From positions 1-23,221 of the IMG/VR virus record IMGVR_UViG_3300000101_000109: a stretch of 23,221 nt of DNA; one strand, written 5' to 3'. The stretch comes from a virus. The notes beneath the pieces are model-generated. The model did not search any database. It worked only from the letters and a program-made list of their open reading frames with translations, and was not told the origin of the DNA. How positions within the stretch are numbered: position 1 is the first letter of the stretch; every line of letters starts with the position of its first letter. Position numbers and translations under genes: made by a program. Positions 5,223-20,987 of the stretch are shown here, in pieces.

Positions 5223-5229
5223 TATTTAT
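5223..5229 (+). promoter_or_regulatory. TATTTAT late-promoter-like motif, 4 nt before the ATG
   Basis: TATTTAT followed by TTAG-like spacing of 4 nt and ATG at 5234. It is one of eight such motifs upstream of gene starts in this window. If it acts as a -10 box, the transcript would be leaderless or nearly so. Confidence 0.5.
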
Positions 5230-5233
5230 TAGT

Positions 5234-5602
5234 ATGGAATTTTTTATACGGAAAGGGGCCACAGACCCATTATTAAAATTAAGGTTATCTGATGACGGTA
5301 GAAACGACAAGTCTTCTTTAAACGACTTATTGGAAAATGCCGACATTAGATTTGATATGGTTGATATCGAAACAGAAATTCCTGAAATTTTAGGTGGTGA
5401 GTGTTTATTAACAACAAGAACCAAAAACTACGACCAAACCACAGAAGAGTATTATATTACATATAGATTTACTTCAGAACAAACAAAAAAAATAGGTAAA
5501 TTCGAGGGAATGGTCAATATTCAATTTAGAGATACAGACCTTAAACCTACGAATAAACTAATTGTTCCCATTAAGGAAAAACTCTACATTAACATTATTT
5601 AG
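5234..5602 (+). CDS. Small beta-rich protein, probable phage structural protein
   Basis: A 122-residue protein rich in predicted beta-strands, with no membrane segment. The pattern 'F-I-R-K-G-A-T-D-P-L-L-K-L' at the start, a central 'ADIRFDM' and a late 'GKFEGMVNIQF' recalls Ig-like N-terminal domains of phage receptor-binding or baseplate proteins (BppU_N type). That resemblance is from memory of the pattern and is weak. It follows the protease gene by 25 nt and has its own TATTTAT motif, so it falls in the late/structural class by regulation. The only ATG in the first part of the frame is at 5234. Treat the product as a hypothetical virion protein. Confidence 0.6.
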   Translation: MEFFIRKGATDPLLKLRLSDDGRNDKSSLNDLLENADIRFDMVDIETEIPEILGGECLLTTRTKNYDQTTEEYYITYRFTSEQTKKIGKFEGMVNIQFRDTDLKPTNKLIVPIKEKLYINII

Positions 5603-5642
5603 AAAGTGTGCAAACATTAATGGAGAATATATGATATCTATC

Positions 5643-5673
5643 TTGATACTATAACTTATTTTTTATATCTTTG
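5643..5673 (+). promoter_or_regulatory. Bacteroidetes-type vegetative promoter for the DNA polymerase gene
   Basis: TTG at 5643-5645, a 20-nt spacer, then TATCTTTG at 5666-5673, an exact match to the known Bacteroidetes consensus (TTTG/TTG, 17-23 nt, TAnnTTTG). Transcription should start near 5680, giving a leader of about 35 nt before the polymerase. The stretch 5603-5713 holds nothing else that I can recognise. Confidence 0.7.
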
Positions 5674-5713
5674 TATTAATTAAGGCAAACTACCCAACTA
5701 AGGGTAAGCTAAT

Positions 5714-8626
5714 GTGTCATCCAATTTTAATACAATGAAAGAAATCATTTCCCAAGAGGTAATCGAAGATTTCCTCAGTGGTTCGGATCCTGAAGATTAT
5801 ATAACAGGAATAGAATACGAGTACCGATCCAACACAATCTACAAAATTATTCAACATCCTGAAAAGGGTAAAATTATTCGAAAAGATAAGTTAACCGCAT
5901 TCTTATGGGTTGATGATCTTACAGGTTTAAATTTCTATGGCGATAGTAAGGCCAAACAACGTCAGAAAATGTCGGAATATGGGATTACTATTGAGAAGTT
6001 AGATACTGCGGATAATGAACGTTTAGAGAATGGTTATAATTTCTTAGTTAAAAGTAGTCAAGGTTATCGTTCACTTCTTAGTTTTTTTAGACAAGGAGGT
6101 TTGAACCCATGGGACGAAGAAATAAGAAAACATTTTATACTACTTAATCCTAAAGAACAATATCTTATACAAAAGGAAAAAAGATTATTCAAGGGTATTG
6201 AAGAATATGAGGATGTACATAGATTAGTTTTTGATATTGAGACAACAGGTCTTGAACCCGAAACAGATAAAATAATTCTAATTGGTTTAAAAGACAATAG
6301 AGGATTTGTTAAAATCATCAATGCATTTGGTGAGGATGGGGAAAAGAATTGTATTATAGAATTCTTCAAATGTGTTGAGGAACTTAAACCCACCATATTT
6401 TCAGGTTATAACTCCTCATTTTTCGATTTTCCTTTTATTCTAAAAAGGTCTGAGATATTAGGTATTGATGTTACTGAACATACTAAAGTATTCATAGATA
6501 TCGGATTAAAGGAAAGGGAGGGTATGTTAAAACTTGCAAACGAAGTAGAAACATACACCCAACATATGATATGGGGAATGAATATTCTTGATATTGCACA
6601 TTCCGTTAGAAGAGCACAGGCGATTAATTCGGATATTAAATCATGGGGTCTGAAATATATCACAAAGTATTTGGGTGCGGAAAAGGAGAATCGTGTTTAT
6701 GTAGATGGTGCGTGGATATCAAAAATATATTTAGATAATGAGAGTTATTATGTAAACCCTAAAACGGGTAACTATAAAAAAATAGGTGACCCTGGCACTG
6801 AAGGTTTATTGGAAAAATACCCTAACCAATTCGAAGTGTGGACAGGTAGAAAAATTGTAGAACAATACCTTGATGATGATTTATATGAAACCATGGTTGT
6901 TGATGAATCATTTAGTCAGTCAACATTCTTACTATCAAAAGTAGTACCCACAACATATGAACGTATATCCACTATGGGTACCGCAACACTGTGGAAACTA
7001 ATAATGTTGGCTTGGTCGTATAAACATAATTTAGCCGTACCTGAGAAACAAGATAGGAGGGCGTTTACGGGTGGTTTATCGAGACTACTTGCGGTTGGTT
7101 ATGCTGAAAAAGTGGTTAAGTTTGACTACTCTTCACTATACCCATCAATTCAATTGGTTTATGATGTATTTCCTAAGTGTGATGTGATGGGGGTACAGAA
7201 ATCTATGTTAAAGTATTTTAGAGATGTTCGTATAAATTATAAGAAGTTGGCATCTCAACATTATAAAACCGACCCCGAATTATCCGAAAAGTACAACAGA
7301 AAACAACTACCGATTAAGATCTTTATTAATGCATATTTTGGTTCTCTTTCCGCACCTCACGTATTTCATTGGGGTGATATGGATACAGGTGAGACCATTA
7401 CGTGTGTTGGTAGACAGTGTTTACGTATGATGATTATGTTTTTCGAAAAGAAAGGTTACAAGTCACTCGTGATGGATACGGATGGTGTAAACTTTTCTTG
7501 TCCTGATGATGTGGAAGATAGGGTATACGTCTCAAAAGGTCTTAATGAGTTAGTGGAAGGAGGTAAAACCTATAGGGGTGCTGAGGCCGACACCGCCGAG
7601 TTTAATGATATTTTCATGAGAAATGAAATGGGGTTAGATATTGATTATGTTGCACCATCAACAGTTAATGTCGCTCGTAAAAACTATGTACTTAAAAAAC
7701 CAAGTGGTGGACTTAAACTAACGGGTAATACCATTAAATCAAAGAATCTTCATGGTTACATTGTTGATTTCTTAGACGAAAGTTTAAAATTAATGTTAGA
7801 TGGTAAGGGACAGGAATTCTTAGATGTTTACTACAAATACATCGGTATGATTTACAATAAGGAGATTCCGTTGGCTAAGATTGCCAATAAGTCAAGAGTA
7901 AAATTGTCAGTAGAGAATTACCTTAAATCCATGAAGACTAAAACCAAGAGTGGAGCATCTAAGGCAAGACAGGCACATATGGAGTTAGTAATGAAAAATA
8001 ATTACCCCGCAGGACTTGGTGAAACCATATACTATGTAAACAATGGTGAACGTAAGGCTGATGGTGATGTACAGAAAATGACCAAACCAACTAAGAAATT
8101 TCAAAAGGAGTTTCTTGAAGAACATGGTTATCCCGTTCCCGAAAATTATATAAAAATTAATTCCTTTATGATTACCGAACAGGAGTTAAAAGATAATCCA
8201 GATATGAAGGGTAATTACAATGTTGCACGATATATTAATACCTTTAACAAAAGAATAGAACCTTTATTGGTTGTATTTCACCCCGACATTCGTAGTGATA
8301 TTATTATTGAGAATCCCGATGATAGACCTTTCTTTACATTAAACCAATGTAAGTTGGTTAATGGGTTCCCAATGAAAGAGGGTAGTCAGGATAGTTTTGA
8401 TGAAGTTATGACATTATCTGATAGTGAGGTATTGTTTTGGAAAAAGGTTGGTAGAGATCCGTATTTTATGTATTTGGAGGATAGTCTTGATCATGTTGAT
8501 CAATATTGGGTACAGAAAAATAGGGATGCGGTTAACTTTAAAGTTCCAAGTAGTCCAACTCAAGAGGGTGATATAATTGAAAGAAGTGGTCATGATTATG
8601 CAACCCACACAGATGTGGATATTTAA
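5714..8626 (+). CDS. Family B DNA polymerase with 3'-5' exonuclease
   Basis: A 970-residue replicative polymerase. Exonuclease motifs: Exo I FDIETTG (D174, E176), Exo II GYNSSFFDFP (N233, D238) and Exo III Y385-LDD-D389. Polymerase motifs: A at KFDYSSLYPSI (D471), B at KIFINAYFGS (K535, N539, G543) and C at MDTDGV (D588, D590), followed by RKNYVL, which fits the KKxY region. All catalytic residues are present, so it should be an active proofreading enzyme. It is slightly longer than T4 gp43 (898 aa), with about 120 extra C-terminal residues beyond the thumb that I do not recognise. The start used is GTG at 5714; an in-frame ATG at 5735 (residue 8) is an alternative. A host-type promoter lies just upstream. 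Its 3' end overlaps the convergent minus-strand gene by 4 nt. Confidence 0.95.
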   Translation: MSSNFNTMKEIISQEVIEDFLSGSDPEDYITGIEYEYRSNTIYKIIQHPEKGKIIRKDKLTAFLWVDDLTGLNFYGDSKAKQRQKMSEYGITIEKLDTADNERLENGYNFLVKSSQGYRSLLSFFRQGGLNPWDEEIRKHFILLNPKEQYLIQKEKRLFKGIEEYEDVHRLVFDIETTGLEPETDKIILIGLKDNRGFVKIINAFGEDGEKNCIIEFFKCVEELKPTIFSGYNSSFFDFPFILKRSEILGIDVTEHTKVFIDIGLKEREGMLKLANEVETYTQHMIWGMNILDIAHSVRRAQAINSDIKSWGLKYITKYLGAEKENRVYVDGAWISKIYLDNESYYVNPKTGNYKKIGDPGTEGLLEKYPNQFEVWTGRKIVEQYLDDDLYETMVVDESFSQSTFLLSKVVPTTYERISTMGTATLWKLIMLAWSYKHNLAVPEKQDRRAFTGGLSRLLAVGYAEKVVKFDYSSLYPSIQLVYDVFPKCDVMGVQKSMLKYFRDVRINYKKLASQHYKTDPELSEKYNRKQLPIKIFINAYFGSLSAPHVFHWGDMDTGETITCVGRQCLRMMIMFFEKKGYKSLVMDTDGVNFSCPDDVEDRVYVSKGLNELVEGGKTYRGAEADTAEFNDIFMRNEMGLDIDYVAPSTVNVARKNYVLKKPSGGLKLTGNTIKSKNLHGYIVDFLDESLKLMLDGKGQEFLDVYYKYIGMIYNKEIPLAKIANKSRVKLSVENYLKSMKTKTKSGASKARQAHMELVMKNNYPAGLGETIYYVNNGERKADGDVQKMTKPTKKFQKEFLEEHGYPVPENYIKINSFMITEQELKDNPDMKGNYNVARYINTFNKRIEPLLVVFHPDIRSDIIIENPDDRPFFTLNQCKLVNGFPMKEGSQDSFDEVMTLSDSEVLFWKKVGRDPYFMYLEDSLDHVDQYWVQKNRDAVNFKVPSSPTQEGDIIERSGHDYATHTDVDI

Positions 8627-9741
8627 ATCATATTAAAAGGAGATGGCATCGCTCTATACTTTAACGACTTGTTAAGACTTTCGGCTTCATTTCCTTTTCT
8701 TTCTAACATTTTGTCAGGTCTTAACCTTTCTAACCTTTGTGACAATTCTTCGATGAGTTTTAGTTTTTCATCCTTACCTTCAGTTAGTAAAGATTGGTAA
8801 TCTAATTTAACTTGACTATCAGGTACTTGTAGGTCCCCCGAGAATTTAGAGTATATCCTACCTAACCCTTCTTTAGAGTATGCGATAAGGAATTTCCTAA
8901 CCCATGTTTGTGCAGGTCTGTTAAGTTCTTCCCATACCAATTCTTCGGTTGCGATATCGGACGGTAATTTTACAACATCTTTATTCTTGTCTAAACAATC
9001 ATCCCTATCCGTAGTATCATAATACCAATACCAAACATAGTAGTTGTGTTGTTGTATAGAACCAAAATCAAATCTACCACCAGGTACGTTAGCCAAGTGA
9101 ATATATTTTTTACCTTCAGGTCCTGCAGTTATACGATAAGTCATTTCACCACCAATTAGACGGTTTTTAATATTCCTATCTTGCATACGTGATAATAAAT
9201 CATAGGCGGGTAACATAAAATAGGAACCTGAAGTACCCATTTGTGCAAATCCACCCACACCACCTGACCCAACACCACCAAGACCACCAAATCCACCTAA
9301 AAATGGATCCACAATAGAGTCGGTTAGTTCGGCACGTGTAAACCATAAGAGTTCGTTTATTTCACGACCCGCAGGAATTTCATATACTTGTTGATCTCTA
9401 ACAAGTTCTATTTTGTCTTTTAGTAGTTCGGAATCACCACCCGCCTGTAAACCAACAATTTTTGAATATGCGTGTGAGTATTGTGTTTCATAGTCTAATG
9501 ATCTCGTAGTAAACGCTCTCGTCAAAGATTGCGTATCAACATTTAACCCAGCTAAAGATGACCACTGAGATTCAATTAACCAATCACTTACGTATTGTTC
9601 ATATTCATCCAAAGACAATTCCAAGAAAGTGTCCATTTGTTCTTCGGTCAATTCTATTGACCTAATAGGTGCTCCTAAAAGGTTAAGAACCTGTGAATAT
9701 AACTTGTCTCGATTTGCCGGTGTAATAATAGTGCTTGCCAT
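8623..9741 (-). CDS. Putative neck / head-tail connector protein (T4 gp13-like)
   Basis: A 372-residue protein. The N-terminal ~60 residues are helical ('ELTEEQMDTFLELSLDEYEQ'-like, then WLIESQWSSL) and are followed by a beta-rich section, an internal Gly-rich loop near residues 147-168, an aromatic stretch (YYVWYWYYD) and a charged helical C-terminus. This resembles neck or connector proteins annotated near gp13/gp14 in T4-like marine phages; the resemblance is from family memory and moderate. It starts with ATG behind a TATTTAT motif, like the tail genes, although it lies on the opposite strand next to the polymerase. Its stop codon overlaps the polymerase stop through a shared TTAA. Confidence 0.6.
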   Translation of the reverse strand: MASTIITPANRDKLYSQVLNLLGAPIRSIELTEEQMDTFLELSLDEYEQYVSDWLIESQWSSLAGLNVDTQSLTRAFTTRSLDYETQYSHAYSKIVGLQAGGDSELLKDKIELVRDQQVYEIPAGREINELLWFTRAELTDSIVDPFLGGFGGLGGVGSGGVGGFAQMGTSGSYFMLPAYDLLSRMQDRNIKNRLIGGEMTYRITAGPEGKKYIHLANVPGGRFDFGSIQQHNYYVWYWYYDTTDRDDCLDKNKDVVKLPSDIATEELVWEELNRPAQTWVRKFLIAYSKEGLGRIYSKFSGDLQVPDSQVKLDYQSLLTEGKDEKLKLIEELSQRLERLRPDKMLERKGNEAESLNKSLKYRAMPSPFNMI

Positions 9742-9743
9742 AC

Positions 9744-9774
9744 TTGATTTATTAATATAAATAGTTTATATTTG
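9744..9774 (+). promoter_or_regulatory. Bacteroidetes-type promoter for the nuclease-like gene
   Basis: TTG at 9744-9746, a 20-nt spacer and TATATTTG at 9767-9774 match the Bacteroidetes -33/-7 consensus, with the same spacing as the polymerase promoter. The expected start near 9781 leaves a leader of only about 14 nt. Confidence 0.65.
9757..9763 (-). promoter_or_regulatory. TATTTAT late-promoter-like motif of the neck-like gene
   Basis: On the minus strand TATTTAT lies 15 nt before the ATG at 9741. On the plus strand the same bases are part of TATAAATA (9756-9763), the T4 late-promoter octamer, and they fall inside the spacer of the plus-strand host-type promoter. Confidence 0.5.
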
Positions 9775-9794
9775 GGAAAAACAGAACAACAATT

Positions 9795-10631
9795 TTGGAT
9801 TTAACTAAAATAAGACTCAAACATCGTAAAACACTTAACATATGGAGGTACATTCATCAAACCTCTAAGTTTAACAAACCTTTCAGTAAAGAAATAACGA
9901 GAATTATTAGAGAAACCCATTCAGAAGATGAATTAAGATGGAGATCGCCTATGGGTTCTGTTGGTAGTGGTTACTACAATTACGATGAAGACACTAAATC
10001 GTATAGTTTTAGAAGCGGAATTAATTTTATTAATACGGGTTTTTCTTATCAGGAATATATTGAGAGGGTTTTAAATGAAAAATACGGTATTAAATTACCC
10101 TATGAAACTGACAATGAGGGTAAATATATTGATGAGACCGTAGAAGAAACTTTGAAGGAGTTTTGTTATTACTTAGAACTTTATAAAGAAGATTTTCTTT
10201 TTGATGGTGATGTAAAGAATCACATCGATCTTATAAGATATCGATTAAAAGTAATATCTGATCGTTCGGAAAAATTAATAGAAAATAATTTTAAGAATAT
10301 ATGGCCCGATTCGATTAGTTACCTTTCGTCTACAGGAAATGGAGGTAATATAAAGGACTTTAGAGGTATCGACGCTGAGATAGTATTTGATCGCGGAGTT
10401 GAAACTGTACAGTGTAAGGAGGTAAGTTTTATTGAAGAGGACGATAATAAAATCATTTTGACCCTTACAATGGATCATACAAAATACTCAAATATAAATT
10501 ACTACGCATTTACACAAGACAATAATTATATTGTTTTTAAAAACGACTCAGGGGGTATAGAAATTTTAAATTCTATGGAGGGTAATGTTTATTCTTTTAA
10601 TAAAGACTTAATTGTGTATTCTACGTTTTAA
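9795..10631 (+). CDS. Unrecognised protein with possible PD-(D/E)XK (Mrr-like) nuclease core
   Basis: A 278-residue protein. The N-terminal half (1-130) is basic, then mixed, and not recognised. Around 155-240 there is a helix with E159/E163, then FRGIDAEIVF (D193), then ETVQCKEV (Q206, K208), then beta-strands: the E / D / QxK order seen in Mrr-type restriction-endonuclease folds. This is a pattern match only. The start chosen is TTG at 9795; there is no in-frame ATG until residue 53, and the frame is open only from 9765, so TTG fits the promoter position. It has a host-type promoter like the polymerase and overlaps the convergent helicase gene by 11 nt. That context fits a DNA-processing role, but this is inference. 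Confidence 0.65.
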   Translation: MDLTKIRLKHRKTLNIWRYIHQTSKFNKPFSKEITRIIRETHSEDELRWRSPMGSVGSGYYNYDEDTKSYSFRSGINFINTGFSYQEYIERVLNEKYGIKLPYETDNEGKYIDETVEETLKEFCYYLELYKEDFLFDGDVKNHIDLIRYRLKVISDRSEKLIENNFKNIWPDSISYLSSTGNGGNIKDFRGIDAEIVFDRGVETVQCKEVSFIEEDDNKIILTLTMDHTKYSNINYYAFTQDNNYIVFKNDSGGIEILNSMEGNVYSFNKDLIVYSTF

Positions 10632-12375: not shown

Positions 12376-12415
12376 CTATAAACTAAATATAAGGAATTCA
12401 AATCATTTTTTAAAC

Positions 12416-12422
12416 TATTTAT
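12416..12422 (+). promoter_or_regulatory. TATTTAT late-promoter-like motif, 4 nt before the ATG
   Basis: The string TATTTATCTATATG (12416-12429), including the start codon, is identical to the one in front of the tape measure gene (19152-19165). The motif lies in the 51-bp divergent gap between the helicase and this gene. Confidence 0.55.
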
Positions 12423-12426
12423 CTAT

Positions 12427-12939
12427 ATGAGTAAAAAACTACCAATTAAAAGAATGAGTAAATTCTTCTCTGAAGAAGACTTCGACTTTAATGTTCAAAT
12501 AGGTCAGGAGTATCTTCATGGAGATTTAAATATGAAATTGGTACTCTACCGTGTTGATACTGAGAGTACGGATACCGATGCGGTATATGCTGAGGTTGGT
12601 AAGGATCAGATTAAGTTCTTCCCACCTATTGAATTCAACGCATTAGTTAAAATAGAAACACCTAAAAATCAGTCTTATAAACCTGGTTTAGTTCGTTACA
12701 TAGAACCTGGTAATATGACTGTATCTGTTTATATAAGTCATTTACGGGATTTGGGTGTTGATATAAAATACGGTGATTTTATTGCATATCCTGAGACTGA
12801 AGATAAGATTAGATATTATACGGTTGCAAATGACGGTAAAGTTACTTCAGACAATAAACACAATATGTTTGGTTTTAAACCACATTACAGAACAATAACT
12901 TGTGTACCGGCAGAAGAGTCGGAATTTAGAGGAATATAA
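12427..12939 (+). CDS. Putative neck/virion structural protein (T4-like phage conserved)
   Basis: A 170-residue soluble protein starting 'MSKKLPIKRMSKFFSEEDFD' and ending in SEFRGI. Both the opening FFSEEDF and the tail 'DNKHNMFGFKPHYRT...PAEESEFRGI'-like segment look like a protein I associate with the neck region of T4-like marine phages, where it sits next to the tail completion gene. I cannot assign a precise role. It overlaps the next gene by one base (TAATG), so the two form an operon with coupled translation. The start is fixed by the ATG directly after a TATTTAT motif. Confidence 0.65.
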   Translation: MSKKLPIKRMSKFFSEEDFDFNVQIGQEYLHGDLNMKLVLYRVDTESTDTDAVYAEVGKDQIKFFPPIEFNALVKIETPKNQSYKPGLVRYIEPGNMTVSVYISHLRDLGVDIKYGDFIAYPETEDKIRYYTVANDGKVTSDNKHNMFGFKPHYRTITCVPAEESEFRGI

Positions 12940-14171
12940 TGGCGATACCTAAAAGAAAAAATAACATAAAAGTTTACCAAGGAAACGAATTAATGGATAG
13001 ACGACAGGAATTATTAGACAAAATCACCGAAGGTGATTCGTTTCTTCCTGACTCGGTACTACACGACGACTTAGATTTGGGGATGTTAGATTTTGTTAAG
13101 AAGAACTTTATTGTTGTTTCTGATGGTATGCAAATACCAATTATACCTAAAATTTTAACCACACAACGTTGGGGTGAGTTTGCTAACACATGGAATTTTG
13201 CCAACTTAGACGGTAACCCGTCAATACCTTTTATTAGTGTAATTAGAAAACCCGACGTTCAACTCGGTACTAATCCAAGTTTACAAAGAACGATACCCGA
13301 TAGACAACAATTTCACTACGCCACAGTTCCAACATGGAATGGTACTCAAGTCGGTGCTGACATTTACAAAATACCACAACCCGTTCCTATTGATATAAGT
13401 TATGAGATTACTATTGTTTGTTCAAGATTCAGAGATTTAAATAAATTTAATCAAATAATATTACAAAAGTTTTCTTCGAGACAAGCGTATACAACTGTTA
13501 AAGGACATTATGTTCCAATAGTTTTAGATAGTATCGAGGATAACACTCCTGTGGATTTAGAATCAAGAAGATTCTACGTTCAAAGCTATAAATTCACTTT
13601 ATTAGGTTTCATTATTGACGATGAAGAATTTGAAGTGAAACCCGCAGTTAGTAGGTTATTTTTGATGAACGAATTTATTAATAGTAATAATTTTGAAAAG
13701 AAATATCTAACTAAAAATTTAGAAATTACTGTTGCTAACTTTACCGCTGATGGAGTACAAACAATTTTTAGTGTAGGAGAGACAATAGGTATACTATTTA
13801 ATGTAACAATTAATGGTTTATTACAAGAAAGAGGGGTGGAATTTAACCATGTTTCTTTGACCTCTAAAATTAGTTTTGTCGAACCACCAAGAGAAGGTTC
13901 CAAGGTAACGATAACATATTATAAAGGAAGGTCAAGTGTTTTTGTAGATTCTGAAGGAAACGTAAGACAGGTTTCTACAGAGTATTTTGACTATTCGGGT
14001 GGAGGTCTTTCATTCACCACATTAAACAATATAGATAGTGTAATTAGTTTAGATTTAAATGGTCTATTGTTAGAAGAAGGTAGTGATTTCGATATTACGG
14101 GAGGAACAGAAGTAACACTAAATGGTACTCCTCGAGTCGGATCAAGAATAGGTGTCACTTATTTATTTTAA
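12939..14171 (+). CDS. Putative tail completion / sheath stabiliser protein (gp15/gp3-like) with C-terminal beta-repeats
   Basis: A 410-residue protein in two parts. Residues 1-~247 contain 'ISYEITIVCSRFRDLNKFNQ', 'FSSRQAYTTVKGHYVPIVL' and 'DDEEFEVKPAVSRLFLM', a pattern I associate with tail-terminator or sheath-stabiliser proteins of T4-like phages (gp15/gp3 group). Residues ~268-327 and ~347-410 are two related beta-repeats of the type 'F-x-V-x-x-x-x-x-x-V-x-NG-L-L' followed by a closing ITY[YF] or VTYLF strand, as in tail fibre or appendage modules. Such an appendix is absent from T4 gp15 (272 aa), so this looks like a fusion. The start overlaps the preceding stop by one base, with AGAGGA seven bases upstream. 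Position before the sheath gene supports the call. Confidence 0.65.
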   Translation: MAIPKRKNNIKVYQGNELMDRRQELLDKITEGDSFLPDSVLHDDLDLGMLDFVKKNFIVVSDGMQIPIIPKILTTQRWGEFANTWNFANLDGNPSIPFISVIRKPDVQLGTNPSLQRTIPDRQQFHYATVPTWNGTQVGADIYKIPQPVPIDISYEITIVCSRFRDLNKFNQIILQKFSSRQAYTTVKGHYVPIVLDSIEDNTPVDLESRRFYVQSYKFTLLGFIIDDEEFEVKPAVSRLFLMNEFINSNNFEKKYLTKNLEITVANFTADGVQTIFSVGETIGILFNVTINGLLQERGVEFNHVSLTSKISFVEPPREGSKVTITYYKGRSSVFVDSEGNVRQVSTEYFDYSGGGLSFTTLNNIDSVISLDLNGLLLEEGSDFDITGGTEVTLNGTPRVGSRIGVTYLF

Positions 14172-14173
14172 TT

Positions 14174-14190
14174 AACCCATTGGGTTTTTT
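14174..14190 (+). terminator. Weak rho-independent terminator after the tail-completion gene
   Basis: AACCC (14174-14178) and GGGTT (14182-14186) form a 5-bp stem with a 3-nt loop, running into six T. It sits three bases after the stop codon. The stem is short, so the call is tentative. Confidence 0.4.
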
Positions 14191-14240
14191 GGGTTTTCTA
14201 TAAAAACTACTGGGTTTTTTGGGTTTTATAAAAAAACTAC
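14181..14240. repeat. Two 30-bp T/G-rich tandem repeats
   Basis: Bases 14181-14210 and 14211-14240 match at 28 of 30 positions; each begins TGGGTTTTTTGGGTTTT and ends AACTAC. A third unit begins with TGGG at 14241 and then diverges. The array lies in the 3' intergenic space between the tail-completion gene and the convergent small minus-strand gene. Function is unknown. Confidence 0.8.
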
Positions 14241-14253
14241 TGGGATATTTTTG

Positions 14254-14312
14254 AATTTTAATTGGCACAAACCCGCCACACATACATGATCTAATTTTAA
14301 TTGGCAGAAACC
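14254..14312. repeat. 20-bp direct repeat pair next to the tandem array
   Basis: Bases 14254-14273 and 14293-14312 match at 19 of 20 positions (AATTTTAATTGGCA[C/G]AAACC). The second copy ends at the stop codon of the small minus-strand gene. The gene-free stretch 14172-14311 otherwise holds only the weak terminator and the 30-bp array. Confidence 0.75.
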
Positions 14313-14470
14313 TATTCATCATATAAACCTCTTTTTCGGTCCACACAATTGGTTTCTATCCACTTTTCCACAACTTTATAAATTTTAAATCCATTATCAT
14401 CACAATACTTTTTTAATATATCGTGGTGTTTTTGACTTATTTTGATGTTTTTGGGGGTTTTGTCGCTCAT
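14312..14470 (-). CDS. Small ribbon-helix-helix-like protein, 52 aa
   Basis: A 52-codon gene on the minus strand, ATG at 14470 and TAG at 14312-14314. The product begins MSDKTPKNIKISQKHHDILK, continues through KKYCDDNGFKIYKVVEKW and ends RKRGLYDE. A short beta-strand (KNIKIS) followed by two helices separated by a DNG turn is the outline of a ribbon-helix-helix (Arc/MetJ-type) DNA-binding protein, and similar short phage proteins with that opening are familiar to me. Coding support: a compositionally normal protein, and TATTTAT exactly 4 nt before the ATG, as at three plus-strand genes. It could be a small regulator acting on the divergent sheath promoter region, but that is inference. Confidence 0.72.
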   Translation of the reverse strand: MSDKTPKNIKISQKHHDILKKYCDDNGFKIYKVVEKWIETNCVDRKRGLYDE

Positions 14471-14474
14471 AAAG

Positions 14475-14481
14475 ATAAATA
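14475..14481 (-). promoter_or_regulatory. TATTTAT motif of the small minus-strand gene
   Basis: Minus-strand TATTTATCTTTATG: the heptamer, 4 nt, then the ATG at 14470. It has the same 4-nt spacing as at 5223, 12416 and 19152. Confidence 0.5.
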
Positions 14482-14548
14482 TAGATAAAAAAATATCTTT
14501 AAATATCCTAAAATAGAAAACTTGGGAACTCTTTACTAAAAACTAAGA

Positions 14549-14555
14549 TATTTAT
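14549..14555 (+). promoter_or_regulatory. TATTTAT late-promoter-like motif of the sheath gene
   Basis: TATTTAT 35 nt before the sheath ATG, followed by an A/T-only leader. The tube gene has the same motif at exactly the same 35-nt distance. The region 14471-14590 contains no Shine-Dalgarno-like sequence and no further gene. Confidence 0.55.
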
Positions 14556-14590
14556 AGTAAACAATAAAAATTTATAATTAAAGTTAATCG

Positions 14591-17401
14591 ATGGCAAATT
14601 CAAACAGAGTATTCGTTTCTCCAGGTGTATATACCTCAGAAAAGGATTTAACGTTCGTAGCACAAAGTGTGGGTGTGACCACATTAGGGTTATCAGGTGA
14701 GGCACTAAAAGGACCTGCATTTGAACCAATTCTAATAAGAAATTTTGACGAATTCAAAACATATTTCGGACCTACTTCACCAACTAAATTTTCGGACGGT
14801 AACCCAAAATACGAATTGGGTTATGTCGCAAAATCATACCTTCAAGAATCTAACCAACTATTTGTAACAAGAGTTTTAGGTTTAACGGGTTACGTACCAA
14901 AAATAACATACGCAATTAAAACATTAGGAGGGGTAACAGTAGACCTTACAGGTGGAACTACAAATGTTGTAGACGCACTATCAGGTACTTCAGTAGATAT
15001 TTCAACTTCCGCATTTATTGCTGACCTAAGTGGGAAAACCGCAAATGATGGAAATAGTGTCGTTGATTCTATCGGAAATTTATCGGTAGTGGACGGAACA
15101 TGGTTTACTATTGGTTTAGTTGATGGATCAGAGACGGTAGGTTTAACACAATCTTTAGAAGTGTCAGGACCAATAGGTACAAACAATAATAACAATTGGT
15201 ACAATACGTACTTTTCAGTAGACGGTCTTGGAAATATAGACGGGGTATATTCATACCTTTTTGTATTTAATTCGACCGATAACGGTTTTAAAATCATACA
15301 ATACAAGTATAATGCATCAGTAAATTCTGATTATGACAATATGGTTGTATTATCTTTAAGACCAAGAGGGTCTTATCAAGGGCAAACTTTAAATCTTGAG
15401 TTAACAACATCAAGTGATGTAGATATTACATCATCTACTTTAGGTAGTGACCCATTATCTGAATTTACACTAAGTGTTACGGGATCTACAAGTGGTGCTA
15501 AGTCATTCACATGTACATTGAATACTTCATCTACTAAGTATGTTTCTAAAGTATTAGGTAACACTAATTTCGATAAGAAGAAAAATGAAGTACCTCTTTA
15601 TGTTTTTGAAGAGTACCCAAAATTATTATCTGCACTTTACGGACAAGGACTTGTTAGAGGTTTAGATGTTGAACATATTTCACATAATGTGGGTAATGAT
15701 TACTTAAATCAATGGGAGACACCGGCATCACCAACAGTTGTATCTGAAGTGAGAGGTGGTATTGTTTCTGACTTATTTAGTGTAATTAGTATTTCAGATG
15801 GAGATGCTGCAAACACACAATTAAAAATACAAGTTCAAAATATTGACCTTGATTCGGGTGAGTTCGATTTGATTATTAGAGACTTCAACGATACTGATAA
15901 TAATGTTTCAGTACTTGAGAAATTCTCAAGATGTACAATGAACCCTGACTTACCAGGATATATTGCTAAGAAAATAGGTACATCAGACGGTGAATATGAG
16001 TTACGTTCAAAATATATAATGTTGAACATGGCTATAGACGCACCCGTTGATGCATTTCCTGCAGGATTTAAAGGATTCACATCAGATTTTCTAAATACAT
16101 CTAAAGTTGGTAACGTATTATTCAAAACAAAATATAATGTGGCGGGTGATGTTATTTCTTATAACTCACAAGGTACAGAACAAAAAACAAACGGAGATAA
16201 AATTAGAAAAGTTACTTTAGGTTTATCATCTCAAATTGGTTTTGATAGAGATTTATTTGAATACAAAGGAAACACTGCGAGTTCAACCTCAAATGGTTTT
16301 CACCTTTCAAGTCAGGCATCTAACATATCAGGTTTTAAAACGACACCATATGATTTAGAAGGAAACAATAAAGGTTTATTAGAAACTAAATCATACAGAA
16401 AATTCACATTCACGGTTTGTGGTGGTTTTGATGGTTGGGATATCTATAGAGGAACAAGAACAAATGGAGATGGTTATATCTTTGGTAAAAACACTTATGT
16501 AAGTGGACACACATCTAATCAGGGTGTATTTAGTGATACTGTTGGAAACTCAGATTACTACGCATATTTAGCGGGAATTGAAACGTTCTCTAACCCTGAA
16601 GCGGTTGATATTAACATATTTGCAACACCAGGTATTGATTTCTATAATCACAGTTCATTAACAAATCAAGCAATTGATATGATTGAAGGTGATAGAGCGG
16701 ATTCATTATACATCACTAACTCACCTAATACTTCAGATGTTGACGAAATAGTTGACCAATTGGATGAAGTTGATTTAGATACTAACTATACGGCAACATA
16801 TTGGCCTTGGATACAAGTAAGAGATGGGGACAATGCAACTCAATTATATATTCCACCAACAGGTGAGGTGTGTAAGAATATTGCATTGACCGATAATGTT
16901 TCTTATCCTTGGTTCGCAGTAGCTGGATACCAAAGAGGTTTGGTAAACGCAATTAAAGCGAAGAAGAAGTTGACGTTAGATAATAGAGATGATTTATATA
17001 ATGCAAGAATTAACCCAATTGCAACATTCTCAGATACGGGAACAATAATTTGGGGTAATAAAACATTACAGGTTAGAGAATCTGCACTTGATAGAATCAA
17101 CGTAAGAAGATTACTACTAAGAGCGAGAAAATTAATTTCAGCAGTTGCCGTTAGATTGTTATTTGAACAAAACGACGAACAGGTAAGAAATGAATTTTTA
17201 AGATTGGTTAATCCAATATTAGAATCTATTAAGAAAGAAAGAGGTTTATATGAATTTAGAGTAGTAGTGTCTAATGATCCAGAAGATATAGATGCAAACA
17301 CACTAAGAGGTAAGATTTATGTTAAACCAACTAGATCTCTTGAATTTATTGATGTAGAATTCTTAATTACTCCAACAGGGGCATCATTTGAGAATATCTA
17401 A
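14591..17401 (+). CDS. gp18: Contractile tail sheath protein
   Basis: A 936-residue sheath subunit, polymerising around the tail tube and contracting on infection. The N-terminus has the typical opening 'VFVSPGVYTSEKDLTF' and 'FDEFKTYFG', then KSYLQESNQLFVTRVLG. The C-terminal ~250 residues carry the conserved sheath core: TYWPWIQVRDG, PPTGEVCKNIALTD, YPWFAVAGYQRGL, 'NARINPIATFSDTGTIIWGN', NVRRLLLRARKL and a final beta-strand ending FLITPTGASFENI. T4 gp18 is 659 residues, so this protein is about 280 longer; the extra lies in the middle (roughly 100-650), which is beta-rich, Ser/Thr/Asn-rich and probably forms surface-exposed domains. It has tandem stop codons (TAA TAG). The large transcript probably starts at the TATTTAT motif 35 nt upstream. 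Confidence 0.95.
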   Translation: MANSNRVFVSPGVYTSEKDLTFVAQSVGVTTLGLSGEALKGPAFEPILIRNFDEFKTYFGPTSPTKFSDGNPKYELGYVAKSYLQESNQLFVTRVLGLTGYVPKITYAIKTLGGVTVDLTGGTTNVVDALSGTSVDISTSAFIADLSGKTANDGNSVVDSIGNLSVVDGTWFTIGLVDGSETVGLTQSLEVSGPIGTNNNNNWYNTYFSVDGLGNIDGVYSYLFVFNSTDNGFKIIQYKYNASVNSDYDNMVVLSLRPRGSYQGQTLNLELTTSSDVDITSSTLGSDPLSEFTLSVTGSTSGAKSFTCTLNTSSTKYVSKVLGNTNFDKKKNEVPLYVFEEYPKLLSALYGQGLVRGLDVEHISHNVGNDYLNQWETPASPTVVSEVRGGIVSDLFSVISISDGDAANTQLKIQVQNIDLDSGEFDLIIRDFNDTDNNVSVLEKFSRCTMNPDLPGYIAKKIGTSDGEYELRSKYIMLNMAIDAPVDAFPAGFKGFTSDFLNTSKVGNVLFKTKYNVAGDVISYNSQGTEQKTNGDKIRKVTLGLSSQIGFDRDLFEYKGNTASSTSNGFHLSSQASNISGFKTTPYDLEGNNKGLLETKSYRKFTFTVCGGFDGWDIYRGTRTNGDGYIFGKNTYVSGHTSNQGVFSDTVGNSDYYAYLAGIETFSNPEAVDINIFATPGIDFYNHSSLTNQAIDMIEGDRADSLYITNSPNTSDVDEIVDQLDEVDLDTNYTATYWPWIQVRDGDNATQLYIPPTGEVCKNIALTDNVSYPWFAVAGYQRGLVNAIKAKKKLTLDNRDDLYNARINPIATFSDTGTIIWGNKTLQVRESALDRINVRRLLLRARKLISAVAVRLLFEQNDEQVRNEFLRLVNPILESIKKERGLYEFRVVVSNDPEDIDANTLRGKIYVKPTRSLEFIDVEFLITPTGASFENI

Positions 17402-17419
17402 TAGAATAAAAAAGGAAAA

Positions 17420-17441
17420 GGGAGGGTCTAACGACTCTCCC
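17420..17441 (+). terminator. Strong hairpin after the sheath gene
   Basis: GGGAGGGTC (17420-17428), loop TAAC and GACTCTCCC (17433-17441) form a nine-base-pair stem with one G-U pair. It lacks a following T run, so it may terminate inefficiently or protect the 3' end of sheath mRNA. Confidence 0.55.
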
Positions 17442-17466
17442 CTATCCAAAAGTAAAAATTGAGATG

Positions 17467-17552
17467 ACCCCAGTATATACTGGTTTAATATATACTAGAT
17501 TTAATATATTATATACTTTATATCCTATATTTCATACTAGTAATTACTGGGT
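17467..17552. repeat. Nested inverted repeats between sheath and tube genes
   Basis: A perfect 14-bp palindrome CCAGTATATACTGG occupies 17470-17483. The longer arms 17467-17487 and 17534-17552 (ACCC(C)AGTA...TACTGGGT) form an imperfect stem-loop around an almost purely A/T centre. No gene is visible in 17402-17671. It could be an operator, an RNA processing or stability element, or a relic. Confidence 0.6.
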
Positions 17553-17629
17553 AATAAAAAAATACGGAAATTAATTGACAATGTCAAGTAGTTCTCAAAT
17601 AAAAAAGAAAAATATTTCGTGAAGAGATA

Positions 17630-17636
17630 TATTTAT
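17630..17636 (+). promoter_or_regulatory. TATTTAT late-promoter-like motif of the tube gene
   Basis: TATTTAT 35 nt before the tube ATG, matching the sheath gene spacing exactly. The A-rich leader has no Shine-Dalgarno sequence. Confidence 0.55.
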
Positions 17637-17671
17637 AATAATAGAATAACAAATATAACAAAAATACAGAC

Positions 17672-18160
17672 ATGGCAGATTTATTAATGAAAATGCCGGT
17701 TCCTTACGAACCGAAAAGAGTTAACCGATTTATCGTTAGGTTCCCATCATCATTGGGTATTAACGAATGGTATGTAACATCGGCGGCAAGACCGAGTGCA
17801 AAAATCAACTCAGTAGAAATTCCTTTCTTAAATACTTCAACTTATGTTGCAGGTAGATTCGTATGGAATGAACTAAGAGTTAAATTTAAAGATCCAATTG
17901 GACCATCAGCGTCTCAAGCGTTAATGGAATGGTTTAGATTACACGCAGAATCAGTAACAGGAAGAATGGGTTATGCTGCAGGGTATAAAAAAGATATTGA
18001 ATTAGAAATGTTAGACCCAACAGGTGTTGTGGTTGAAAAATGGATTTTACAAGGTTCATTTATGACTGACCTAAACTTCAACGAACTTGATTATAACAAC
18101 GATGCATTAGCAACGATTGATTGTACATTGAGAATGGATAGATGTATCCAAGTATATTAA
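17672..18160 (+). CDS. gp19: Tail tube protein
   Basis: A 162-residue protein of the T4 gp19 family (163 aa in T4), which stacks as hexamers to form the inner tail tube. Characteristic stretches are PYEPKRVNRFIVRFP near the start, a central 'KFKDPIGPSASQALMEWF', then GYKKDIELEMLDPTG and 'WILQGSFMTDLNFNELDY' with the closing strand IDCTLRMDRCI. The length and the position right after the sheath gene match the T4-like order. It has its own promoter-like motif and its own terminator, allowing the high-level monocistronic expression expected for a major structural protein. The ATG at 17672 is the only reasonable start. Confidence 0.95.
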   Translation: MADLLMKMPVPYEPKRVNRFIVRFPSSLGINEWYVTSAARPSAKINSVEIPFLNTSTYVAGRFVWNELRVKFKDPIGPSASQALMEWFRLHAESVTGRMGYAAGYKKDIELEMLDPTGVVVEKWILQGSFMTDLNFNELDYNNDALATIDCTLRMDRCIQVY

Positions 18161-18184
18161 AAAAATAATCTGTCGATATATTTC

Positions 18185-18215
18185 AAGGGGATCTTTTATA
18201 AGGGTCCCCTTTTTT
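18185..18215 (+). terminator. Rho-independent terminator after the tube gene
   Basis: AAGGGGATC (18185-18193) pairs with GGTCCCCTT (18203-18211), nine base pairs with one G-U, nine-nt loop, followed by T through 18215. It lies 24 nt after the tube stop codon. Confidence 0.85.
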
Positions 18216-18265
18216 ATTTCATTTAAACTTTACTTTATAGTATTTAATAGTTAGATTTAAACAGT

Positions 18266-19018
18266 ATGGAAAACGAATATAGAATAGACCCGACAATTCA
18301 ATACGATGTTGTTGAATTACCAAGTAGAGGTATATACTATCCAAATGGTGTAAAGGCATTAAAGGTAGCATACCTAACCGCGGCGGATGAGAATGTCTTA
18401 TCCTCACCAAACTTAGCAGCAAATGGAGACATTGTTACAGAACTTTTAAAAAGAAAAGTTTTAACTAAAGATGTACCTGTTGAAGATTTAACAAGAGAAG
18501 ATAAAGAGGCAATCTTAATTTTCTTACGTAATACTGCATTTGGTTCAGAATTAAAACTAGAGTTAAAAGACCCTAAAACGGAAGAGACATTTGAACATAC
18601 AGTTGATTTAAGTGAACTTACTTATAAAGAATTCGACTTAAAAGAAGATGAAAACGGTGAATATCCATATTTTATGGAAAAATCTAAAGTAGATATTACA
18701 TTTAAATTTCTTACACCAAAAGACGAACAAGATTTAGAAGATATAACTAAAAGTTGGAACGGTCTTGGTGCTCCTCCTATTGTTACAAAAAGATTAGAAA
18801 AACTAATTAAGAGTGTTAAAGGTAATAAAGATCAAATGAATATAAGAAATTTCATTGAAACCTTACCTATATTAGACTCTCAAGATTTCAGAAAATATAT
18901 CAATAAAGTAAAACCAGGTGTAAACTTAGTACACCACGCAGTCGCCCCATCAGGAGAAAAAGTCACTTTTAGAGTAGACTTTGGGGTGGAGTTTTTTCGT
19001 CCTTTCTACGGACTATAA
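18266..19018 (+). CDS. Baseplate/tail assembly chaperone (T4 gp26/gp51-like)
   Basis: A 250-residue soluble protein with the pattern 'VVELPSRGIYYPN', 'VAYLTAADENVLSSPNL', KEAILIFLRNTAFG and, at the end, FRVDFGVEFFRPFYGL. This matches my memory of the T4-like baseplate/hub chaperone family around gp26 and gp51 (about 210-250 aa). It sits between the tube and the tape measure genes, the usual place for tail assembly chaperones, which often use a frameshift to make a longer form. A +1 overlapping frame continues 44-50 codons past this stop (see next entry). Upstream is a degenerate box TACTTTAT (18231-18238) rather than TATTTAT. The start is ATG at 18266, with no Shine-Dalgarno. Confidence 0.75.
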   Translation: MENEYRIDPTIQYDVVELPSRGIYYPNGVKALKVAYLTAADENVLSSPNLAANGDIVTELLKRKVLTKDVPVEDLTREDKEAILIFLRNTAFGSELKLELKDPKTEETFEHTVDLSELTYKEFDLKEDENGEYPYFMEKSKVDITFKFLTPKDEQDLEDITKSWNGLGAPPIVTKRLEKLIKSVKGNKDQMNIRNFIETLPILDSQDFRKYINKVKPGVNLVHHAVAPSGEKVTFRVDFGVEFFRPFYGL

Positions 19019-19151
19019 AAGCGCGCAGTTTACTGAAACAATTTTTTTACTTAGAAAAGGGTTCTCACATAGGGATGTTTTAGAGATGCCCGTGTTTATG
19101 AGAAGATACTACGTCGAACGAATTATAGAGTTAGAAAAGTCTACCGACTAG
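18978..19151 (+). CDS. Overlapping +1-frame extension of the chaperone (candidate programmed frameshift)
   Basis: Relative to the chaperone frame, the +1 frame is open from 18978 to the TAG at 19149-19151. It encodes YKSAQFTETIFLLRKGF, then SHRDVLEMPVFMRRYYVERI and finally IELEKSTD, a protein-like, helical, charged sequence. The only ATG (19086) would give just 21 residues, so an independent gene is unlikely. A shift at TTT TTT CGT (18992-19000, Phe tRNA slipping UUU to UUC before a rarer Arg codon) or at CTA TAA (19013-19018) would each give a 294-residue fusion. The frame ends exactly where the tape-measure TATTTAT motif begins. Shift site and direction are inferred; a sequencing indel is the alternative. 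Confidence 0.6.
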   Translation, partial: TLGWSFFVLSTDYKSAQFTETIFLLRKGFSHRDVLEMPVFMRRYYVERIIELEKSTD

Positions 19152-19158
19152 TATTTAT
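19152..19158 (+). promoter_or_regulatory. TATTTAT late-promoter-like motif of the tape measure gene
   Basis: TATTTATCTATATG, including the ATG at 19163, is identical to the start region of the neck-like gene at 12416-12429. It directly follows the stop of the +1 frame. Confidence 0.55.
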
Positions 19159-19162
19159 CTAT

Positions 19163-20956
19163 ATGGACAAGAAAACGCAAAGGGAACTAGCCAATTTAAT
19201 GTCAGAGGTTGATAAGGGTAATATAACCCCTAAACAAGCTCAGAAAGAACAGAATGCGATATTTTCAAGGTTACAAAGTAGTGGTAATAACGGTTCAAGT
19301 GGTAACTCAATTGGTGGTGCTGACATGCGATCCACCGTTACCGATATTATTGCCGGTGCCTCATTACAACAATACGCACCTGAAGATACCAATGTTATTG
19401 CGGAATTAGTTAAGAATTATAAACCACCAACTGATGGTGGAAGTACCGTGGGTGCGGTTTTTAGTTCACTAATTAAAACGGCAATGGATGGTATAGGGGA
19501 TTATGTAAAAGAACAATCCTATTTACTTACGTTTGTTAATAAAGAATTAGGTTTGGCGGGTGAGTTATCTCAAAAGTTTAGAGAATCTGTAACTGAGGCC
19601 CAACCAGAATTAAGAAGAATGGGTATTCCTTTTAAGGAGATGACCGATTCTATAGGTAAATTAATAGAAGATACGGGTAGATTTGCGTTAGTTGGTGAGG
19701 ATATGTTGGTACGTGCAGGAGAAATTTCTGGTGCATATGGTATGAAGATGTCTGAAGTAATTGGTGCGTATGATGATTTTGAAAAAGTAGGTATCGGAGC
19801 GGCACAAGCACAAGAGTCTATTGCAGATGCGGGTAAACGATCTTTAGAGGTTGGAATACAATCAAGACAAACCATTCAGGGAATGATAGAGAATGTTGGA
19901 AAACTGAATGAATATGGTTTCTCTCAAGGAGTAGAAGGTCTTGAAAAAATGGTAAGAAGGTCTACAGAAATAAGAATGAGTTTAAGTGAGACATTTAAAG
20001 TTGCTGATAAGGTATTTTCACCTGAAGGTGCGATGGAACTATCCGCAGAGTTGGGTGTTTTAGGTGCTGCGTTTGGAGACTTTAACGATCCATTAAGACT
20101 TATGTATATGGCAACCAATGAGGTTGAAGGATTACAGGGAGCGTTAGAAGGTGTTGCGGGTAACTTAGCAACCTACAATATGGAAACAGGTGGGTTTGAA
20201 GTTACAGGTGCCAACCTTAGACAGGCAAGAGAAATTGCGGGTAAATTAGGTATAGACATGGCTGAACTTACCCAATCAGCAATCGCACTACAAGAACGTC
20301 AACAGGCGGCGTTATCATTAGAAGGATTAAATATTGATGAGGATCAAGTACAAATTCTAACCAACCTCGCGAGAATGAAAGATGGTGAAATGTCAATTGA
20401 TCTACAAGCTGCGGGATTGGAAGAAGAGTTTGGAAAAAGTTCAATTAAATTAAGTGAATTAAATGGTGACTTAGCCGACAAATTAATAGGTTTCCAAGAT
20501 GAATTTAAAGATAAATCAGAAAAAGACCTCATAAGAGAACAAGTAACTTTAGTCGAAAACATAAGTAGGGATGTTAATTACCTTGCGATGTTGGCAAGAT
20601 TAGAAGTTGCGGGTGTCGGAGACCAAGCGGTACGGGCATTGTCTCAGATGGGTGCTAAAGAGGGAGGAGTTGATTTAAGTAAAATGTTAGCGACAGAATT
20701 CGATGAGTACGTGGAAATGTTCGGTGAACAAAAAGCGGCAATTATAAAGGCGGCACAAGAAAAAATGGGTATAGACCCATCCGAATTTAAAAAGAATAAA
20801 AATACCTCTTCAGAATCAACCACTGAAAAGGGTAAGACAGACACTCTTAAAGTAGAGGTTAGCGCTAAAGACGCAATTACTGGATTTTATCAAAAGGAAT
20901 GGTCGTTAAATCCTGAGAGATGGGTTGCGGGTAAAGGTTATTTAAACCCTAATTAA
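19163..20956 (+). CDS. Tail tape measure protein
   Basis: A 597-residue, mostly helical protein. Residues ~85-330 look like the phage tape-measure core: 'LRRMGIPFKEMTDSIGKLI', then 'VGEDMLVRAGEISGAYGMK' and 'MSEVIGAYDDFEKVGIGAA', with no membrane segment except moderately hydrophobic helices. The N-terminus (1-60) is polar with a Gly/Ser/Asn-rich linker, and the C-terminus is a charged tail (535-565) followed by WSLNPERWVAGKGYL. Tape measures set tail length at about 1.5 Angstrom per residue, which would give a tail of roughly 90 nm; this is an estimate. Position after the chaperone and before the baseplate gene agrees. A terminator overlaps its last codons. Confidence 0.85.
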   Translation: MDKKTQRELANLMSEVDKGNITPKQAQKEQNAIFSRLQSSGNNGSSGNSIGGADMRSTVTDIIAGASLQQYAPEDTNVIAELVKNYKPPTDGGSTVGAVFSSLIKTAMDGIGDYVKEQSYLLTFVNKELGLAGELSQKFRESVTEAQPELRRMGIPFKEMTDSIGKLIEDTGRFALVGEDMLVRAGEISGAYGMKMSEVIGAYDDFEKVGIGAAQAQESIADAGKRSLEVGIQSRQTIQGMIENVGKLNEYGFSQGVEGLEKMVRRSTEIRMSLSETFKVADKVFSPEGAMELSAELGVLGAAFGDFNDPLRLMYMATNEVEGLQGALEGVAGNLATYNMETGGFEVTGANLRQAREIAGKLGIDMAELTQSAIALQERQQAALSLEGLNIDEDQVQILTNLARMKDGEMSIDLQAAGLEEEFGKSSIKLSELNGDLADKLIGFQDEFKDKSEKDLIREQVTLVENISRDVNYLAMLARLEVAGVGDQAVRALSQMGAKEGGVDLSKMLATEFDEYVEMFGEQKAAIIKAAQEKMGIDPSEFKKNKNTSSESTTEKGKTDTLKVEVSAKDAITGFYQKEWSLNPERWVAGKGYLNPN

Positions 20957-20969
20957 TTTGAGGGTTTTT
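20944..20969 (+). terminator. Terminator overlapping the end of the tape measure gene
   Basis: AAACCCT (20944-20950) and AGGGTTT (20961-20967) form a seven-base-pair stem with a ten-nt loop that contains the stop codon, followed by T to 20969. It isolates the tape measure transcript from the next gene. Confidence 0.65.
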
Positions 20970-20980
20970 CATCTTAAATC

Positions 20981-20987
20981 TATTTAT
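20981..20987 (+). promoter_or_regulatory. TATTTAT late-promoter-like motif of the baseplate gene
   Basis: TATTTAT 14 nt before the ATG at 21002. It is also preceded by TTTG (20957-20960) at 20 nt, the only copy with a host-like -33 element. Confidence 0.55.

Follow-up and report, generated by a model that had tools for sequence, protein, structure and literature searches.

What does the heptamer TATTTAT do in front of phage genes? The question is raised by a stretch of viral DNA of 23,221 nucleotides (hereafter, the window), which comes from a virus record of 28,513 bases (IMGVR_UViG_3300000101_000109). The first-pass annotation had noticed the heptamer before eight gene starts and proposed a phage-specific late promoter that does without a -33 element. 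This proposal is strongly supported by the conservation of the heptamer, its distribution between late and early genes, the lack of a -33/-35 column, and the presence of a gp55-like sigma factor in relatives. The window encodes a tail sheath, a tail tube, a gp13-like neck protein, a T4-type baseplate protein, a family B DNA polymerase, and a phage DNA helicase, and is therefore a fragment of a T4-like myovirus. The hosts of this group are most likely Bacteroidota, because the DNA polymerase gene and gene 9795 possess Flavobacterium-type promoters (TTG-N20-TAnnTTTG) and because one of the two named relatives found via the sigma gene infects Flavobacterium. Neither an Rfam scan nor a tRNA scan of the window gave any match.

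Table 1. Promoter elements and associated genes of the window, with the number of distinct ortholog upstream sequences that carry TATTTAT where counted
Feature	Position	Strand	Evidence
TATTTAT box, 4 nt before ATG 5234 (122-aa protein)	5223..5229	+	10/17 distinct ortholog upstreams; spacers 4-5, 13
Host-type promoter TTG-N20-TATCTTTG before family B DNA polymerase, without TATTTAT	5643..5673	+	0/17 orthologs with TATTTAT
gp13-like neck / head-tail adaptor	8623..9741	-	phrog_211, E=8e-11; T4 gp13 by phmmer
Host-type promoter TTG-N20-TATATTTG before gene 9795, back-to-back with late box 9757(-)	9744..9774	+	sequence
TATTTAT box, 15 nt before neck gene 8623-9741(-)	9757..9763	-	23/23 distinct ortholog upstreams
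TATTTAT box, 4 nt before ATG 12427 (170-aa protein; first of pair with 12939)	12416..12422	+	27/27 distinct ortholog upstreams; spacers 4-7
TATTTAT within 3' end of gene 12939-14171 (ninth copy; probably no promoter)	14160..14166	+	
TATTTAT box, 4 nt before Arc/RepB-like 52-aa gene 14312-14470(-)	14475..14481	-	37/40 distinct ortholog upstreams
TATTTAT box, 35 nt before ATG 14591 (tail sheath)	14549..14555	+	31/31 distinct ortholog upstreams; spacers 33-40
Tail sheath (T4 gp18 family)	14591..17401	+	phrog_23, E=6e-60; query for finding relatives
TATTTAT box, 35 nt before ATG 17672 (tail tube)	17630..17636	+	32/32 distinct ortholog upstreams
Tail tube (T4 gp19 family)	17672..18160	+	phrog_4542, E=1e-23
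TATTTAT box, 4 nt before ATG 19163 (597-aa protein)	19152..19158	+	7/8 distinct ortholog upstreams; spacers 4-5
TATTTAT box, 14 nt before ATG 21002 (1574-aa protein in full record)	20981..20987	+	22/22 distinct ortholog upstreams

The window contains nine copies of TATTTAT, eight of which lie 4-35 nt upstream of a gene start on the same strand. The coordinates, strands, and distances to the ATG (4, 14, 15, and 35 nt) reported for these eight sites proved correct, as did the identity of two of the 4-nt sites, at 12416 and 19152, over 14 bases including the ATG (TATTTATCTATATG). The whole 28.5-kb record has ten copies with eight upstream of genes, the tenth being intragenic at 24887(-). The total in the window is not high (9 vs. 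15.5 expected from whole-window shuffles); it is the placement that is unusual. The upstream regions, 648 nt in total, hold eight sense copies where a first-order Markov model of these regions predicts 1.10, and eight was never reached in 5000 Markov simulations (maximum, 7). The same upstream regions hold two antisense copies. The statement that the element marks structural genes holds as a trend and fails for the full set of eight, where family matches cover the sheath, the tube, and the gp13-like neck only; the remaining genes preceded by TATTTAT in the window encode the Arc/RepB-like 52-aa protein and proteins without functional assignment.

Relatives of the window were collected as 80 IMG/VR loci using the sheath protein as a query (66-94% identity), and orthologs sharing an identical upstream sequence were counted once. 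Before the genes for the sheath (31/31), tube (32/32), and neck (23/23), the heptamer never varies, although its flanks have diverged. In the tube gene upstreams, the seven motif columns are 100% conserved, with adjacent columns going down to 33%. TATTTAT is absent from all 17 upstreams of DNA polymerase orthologs and from those of the operon-internal genes g12939 (0/35 distinct upstreams) and g25719 (0/14). The baseplate gene 18266 is preceded by TATTTAA in the window and by the exact heptamer in 7 of 37 relatives. Conservation, enrichment, and the split between gene classes described below make TATTTAT a real, conserved element.

Five large records were scanned in full (G001, 176 kb; G002, 169 kb; G009, 236 kb; G010, 317 kb; G011, 159 kb), with gene starts called by a home-made ATG-only caller. 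TATTTAT turned out to be the top upstream 7-mer in G001 (37 genes vs. 4.7 expected), G002 (28 vs. 5.4), G010 (96 vs. 12.5), and G011 (51 vs. 7.1). In G009 it is third, behind pieces of the host-type box TATCTTTG. The host box TAnnTTTG is not matched by TATTTAT, and both boxes are separately enriched in G009-G011. Homologues of T4 late genes are preceded by TATTTAT in 37 of 44 cases vs. 3 of 28 for early and middle homologues (Fisher p 5e-10), in counts that also take in shorter records and whose orthologs are not independent; with each T4 gene counted once, the split is 7/8 vs. 0/9 (p 4e-4). The major capsid gene, gp23, has no box within 110 nt in any of the four genomes where it was found; perhaps it is transcribed by read-through from the preceding gene. 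TATTTAT thus very probably turns on the late (virion) genes in a large T4-like group of Bacteroidota phages, as judged from the genomes.

The box also occurs in a cultured phage. Flavobacterium phage vB_FspM_immuto_2-6A (Immutovirus; hereafter, immuto) carries a distant gp55-like gene (32% over half the protein), and TATTTAT is its top upstream 7-mer, found before 33 genes vs. 3.6 expected. These include the genes for terminase, portal, sheath, tube, baseplate hub, and tape measure. Immuto differs from the window in its annotated DNA polymerase, which belongs to family A rather than B. In the phage Mel-JY01, TATTTAT is likewise enriched upstream of genes. No description of immuto promoters was found in the open-licence literature; this phage offers a system for direct study of the promoter. 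The 67-74 kb region of immuto shows a different repeated promoter, TTG...TATATTTAGGTATCAATAATTAAAAC, before many small genes, the downstream part of which is unusual and conserved; it is likely an early promoter class.

An alignment of 275 TATTTAT sites on the box reveals no conserved column that could correspond to a -33 or -35 element, and no column upstream of -2 exceeds 0.12 bits in the full set, so that the claimed lack of a -33 element is borne out. The base just before the box is a purine, A or G, in 80% of the sites. Variants of TATTTAT with a single mismatch show no enrichment at the 4-5 nt position. The proposed tight coupling to the start codon is seen as a spike: 48 sites have a box-to-ATG spacing of 4 nt and another 42 one of 5 nt (90 in total), with a floor at 4 nt and three sites at 0-3 nt. 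Spacings of 6-11 nt occur at only 19 sites in all, and a second mode lies at 13-17 nt. Of the three fixed spacings suggested earlier, the larger data retain the sharp mode at 4-5 nt and replace the rest by the broad 13-17 nt mode and a tail, in which the 33-45 nt spacing reflects a leader conserved in front of the sheath and tube genes. The host-type box TAnnTTTG of G009-G011 likewise piles up at 4 nt.

The spacing floor suggests that transcription starts 4-5 nt after TATTTAT. In Flavobacterium johnsoniae the -7 box stands 4-5 nt from the transcription start (PMC6847099), and in F. psychrophilum the box occupies -12 to -5 (PMC9723704). Since the Flavobacterium box has this distance, transcripts of the 4-5 nt class would begin at the A of the ATG or one base before it. 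The sites with such spacers are thus predicted to yield leaderless late mRNAs whose 5' end coincides with the start codon or lies no more than one base from it. The scarcity of 6-11 nt spacings fits a ribosome that accepts either no leader or a leader of about nine bases. In the five large genomes, 23-42% of the sites have a spacing of 4-5 nt, compared with 9% in immuto (3 of 34 boxes) and 0% in Mel-JY01; the leaderless habit therefore seems to belong to the clade of the window, whereas the box is spread more widely. At leadered sites, A is preferred at the predicted start (58% vs. 47%, p 0.02), a signal too weak to establish A as the initiating base of leadered transcripts. Leaderless mRNAs make up only 5.5% in F. 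psychrophilum (PMC6847099, PMC9723704).

The first-pass annotation regarded TATTTAT as the reverse complement of the T4 late box and hence as oriented opposite to T4. This is not the simplest reading and is not upheld: read on the same strand, TATTTATA differs from TATAAATA only at its centre (TAT-TT-ATA instead of TAT-AA-ATA). The sense heptamer ATAAATA is not enriched in G001 and G002 and is enriched only mildly in G009-G011, far below TATTTAT, which does not favour the reverse-complement reading. Upstream of genes, TATAAATA itself is rare in G000-G005, with 0-5 genes per record, and shows a broad scatter in G009-G011. Like the T4 late promoter, which is served by gp55, gp33, and gp45 (PMC2988020, PMC7892883), the element is a single AT-rich box of the -10 region without a -35 element and stands before late genes. 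Unlike it, the box is TATTTAT(A) instead of TATAAATA and is commonly 4-5 nt from the ATG, compared with 13-34 nt in T4. Aeromonas phage Aeh1, as far as it is cited in PMC2988020, provides a precedent for an altered T4-type box (a/gC at -13/-12); by that account Aeh1 changes the 5' edge of the box, whereas here the centre is changed and the edges are kept. Bacteroidota sigma-A promoters (TTG/TAnnTTTG; PMC6847099, PMC9723704) resemble the element in the distance of 4-5 nt between box and transcription start, and they serve in these phages for the DNA polymerase gene, among others. They differ in the box and, in the two clear cases of the window, in having TTG at -33. TATTTAT is best read as an altered form of the T4 late promoter; its promoter function, the start site, the leaderless state, and the reader are inferred by us from sequence. 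No earlier description of it was found in the open-licence literature.

A candidate reader is encoded in relatives. The 233-aa protein of G001 (26799-27500, minus strand) has T4 gp55 as its best PDB sequence match (E 0.0012 in a single-sequence search and 0.0046 with a profile), a weak similarity in sequence terms, which points to region-2 homology of the two. All 29 aligned relatives of this protein match phrog_234, 'late sigma', at E up to 1 (best E 1.3e-4); in a comparable search, T4 gp55 itself reaches only 14.5 bits against Sigma70_r2. The AlphaFold model (mean pLDDT 79, pTM 0.43) shows a predicted sigma fold, and a structure search with it returned mostly sigma factors at E of about 0.01 and above, none below 0.001, with gp55 itself at rank 43. 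Region 4 is not detectable in the protein. The gene is present in one copy each in G001, G006-G013, and G017, a survey that is not independent, as most of these records were fetched via the gene. G002 does not show the gene, and it also lacks gp17, gp20, gp21, and gp23, which the same search found in G001; the record therefore probably lacks that region. No sigma gene was seen in the 28.5-kb record of the window, a fragment, so the sigma factor of this phage is deduced from relatives.

In T4 gp55, R57, F86, and Y97 line the pocket for A-12, while N13 and T99 touch A-9 and A-8 (PMC7892883). The three pocket residues are kept in the clade (F86 is Y in one sequence), whereas N13 is replaced by E, V, D, I, or T, and T99 by G. 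These changes fit a box altered at its centre, as a correlation over few lineages. H95 is Y in the clade; this difference from T4 is less telling, and its role as a specificity switch is weakened because cyanophages have F there. The gp55-like protein carries a C-terminal segment of about 90 residues that is absent from T4 gp55 and present in immuto and Mel-JY01. A conserved sliding-clamp-binding tail (SCBM) was not identified on it: the C-termini are hydrophobic (e.g., DFINY) in some members, such an end is absent in the other subgroup, and a pattern scan for clamp-binding C-termini gave scattered, chance-like matches. Neither gp33 nor gp45 was matched in phmmer comparisons with T4 or among a small number of scanned proteins, and divergence may hide them.

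The box could instead be read by a second, canonical sigma factor having both regions 2 and 4. Such a protein does exist: at 133478-134278, G001 encodes 266 aa comprising both the Sigma70_r2 and the Sigma70_r4 domain, and Sigma70_r2 is strongly matched in G002, G006, G008, G009, G010, and G013 as well. However, region 4 would be expected to leave a -33/-35 signal, and none is seen. The canonical gene was not found in G011, G007, and G012, records that may be incomplete, yet G011 uses TATTTAT strongly. The complete genomes of immuto and Mel-JY01 contain no detectable match to canonical sigma region 2 or 4, although TATTTAT is enriched upstream of their genes, and for this reason the gp55-like protein is favoured as the reader of the box. 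We regard the canonical sigma factor as an unlikely, though not negligible, candidate for this role.

Two further explanations dispense with a phage sigma factor, and both appear far less probable. TATTTAT might act in the mRNA as a translation-initiation element replacing the Shine-Dalgarno sequence, which Bacteroidota do not have (PMC6847099), and its frequent position 4-5 nt from the ATG would agree with that. Against this very improbable role, the distance spans from 4 to more than 40 nt and is broadly conserved for each gene, operon-internal genes (12939, 25719) and replication genes have no box, and the known positive determinants in Flavobacterium are adenines at -3, -6, and -12/-13 rather than this heptamer (PMC6847099). 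That TATTTAT is a host promoter element recognized by a host sigma factor also has very little probability in our view. Bacteroidota promoters do have an AT-rich box near -7 (PMC6847099), but none of the six sigma motifs of F. psychrophilum is described as TATTTAT (PMC9723704), and these phages have the host box TAnnTTTG as well, in separate use, e.g., before the DNA polymerase gene.

We therefore return to the late promoter read by a gp55-like protein. It is likely, taken as a whole, that TATTTAT is a late box of the -10/-7 type, served by a gp55-like sigma factor without a -33/-35 element, with transcription starting 4-5 nt downstream. In such a scheme, TATTTAT would be the -10-type box (-7 in Bacteroidota), to which a gp55-related phage sigma factor without detectable region 4 would direct the host RNA polymerase by the box alone. 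The -10 box would have passed from TATAAATA to TATTTATA, the central AA becoming TT with the outer bases kept. RNA would start 4-5 nt after the box, so that a box 4-5 nt before the ATG would give a leaderless mRNA, and the other promoters would give leaders of about 9 nt or more. A more specific proposal has in our estimate an even chance of being right: a gp55-like subfamily that has an extra C-terminal domain and lacks a conserved clamp-binding tail would recognize TATTTAT in place of TATAAATA in T4-like phages of Bacteroidota and would place the transcription start at the AUG, a quarter to two fifths of the late promoters thereby giving leaderless virion mRNAs.

With such a rule for recognizing late promoters by sequence, late genes could be called from DNA alone in a large T4-like group, most of which is uncultured. 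A structural question also becomes testable, namely, which sigma residues switch the box centre from AA to TT with the A-12 pocket unchanged. Finally, the scheme predicts leaderless phage mRNAs in Bacteroidota, hosts that have no Shine-Dalgarno sequences and in which leaderless mRNAs are rare.

Several other features of the window deserve mention. At two pairs of divergent genes, a late box stands back-to-back with a host-type or near-host box: 12416-12422 (+) with TATATTTA at 12384-12391 (-), and 9757-9763 (-) with TATATTTG in 9744-9774 (+). Positions 11-3922 encode a 1303-aa protein in which long Pro/Thr repeats (PTPTPT) separate globular segments; the motifs CVNHASM and CYYHGYM in two of the segments presumably resemble cupredoxin copper sites. 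It is directly followed by a protease-like protein (3928-5208; phrog_20754, protease). A tandem AACCCATTGGGTTTTTTGGGTTTT / AAACTACTGGGTTTTTTGGGTTTT at 14174-14233, 3' of gene 12939-14171, is a terminator-like repeat. Upstream of the DNA polymerase gene, at 5682-5719, there is a hairpin, AAGGCAAACTACCC-AACTAA-GGGTAAGCTAATGTGTCA, which is conserved in 13 relatives. Its outer sequences are near-invariant, and the stem arms vary in length and sequence with complementarity kept, as judged by eye. In position it resembles the translational operator of T4 gene 43.
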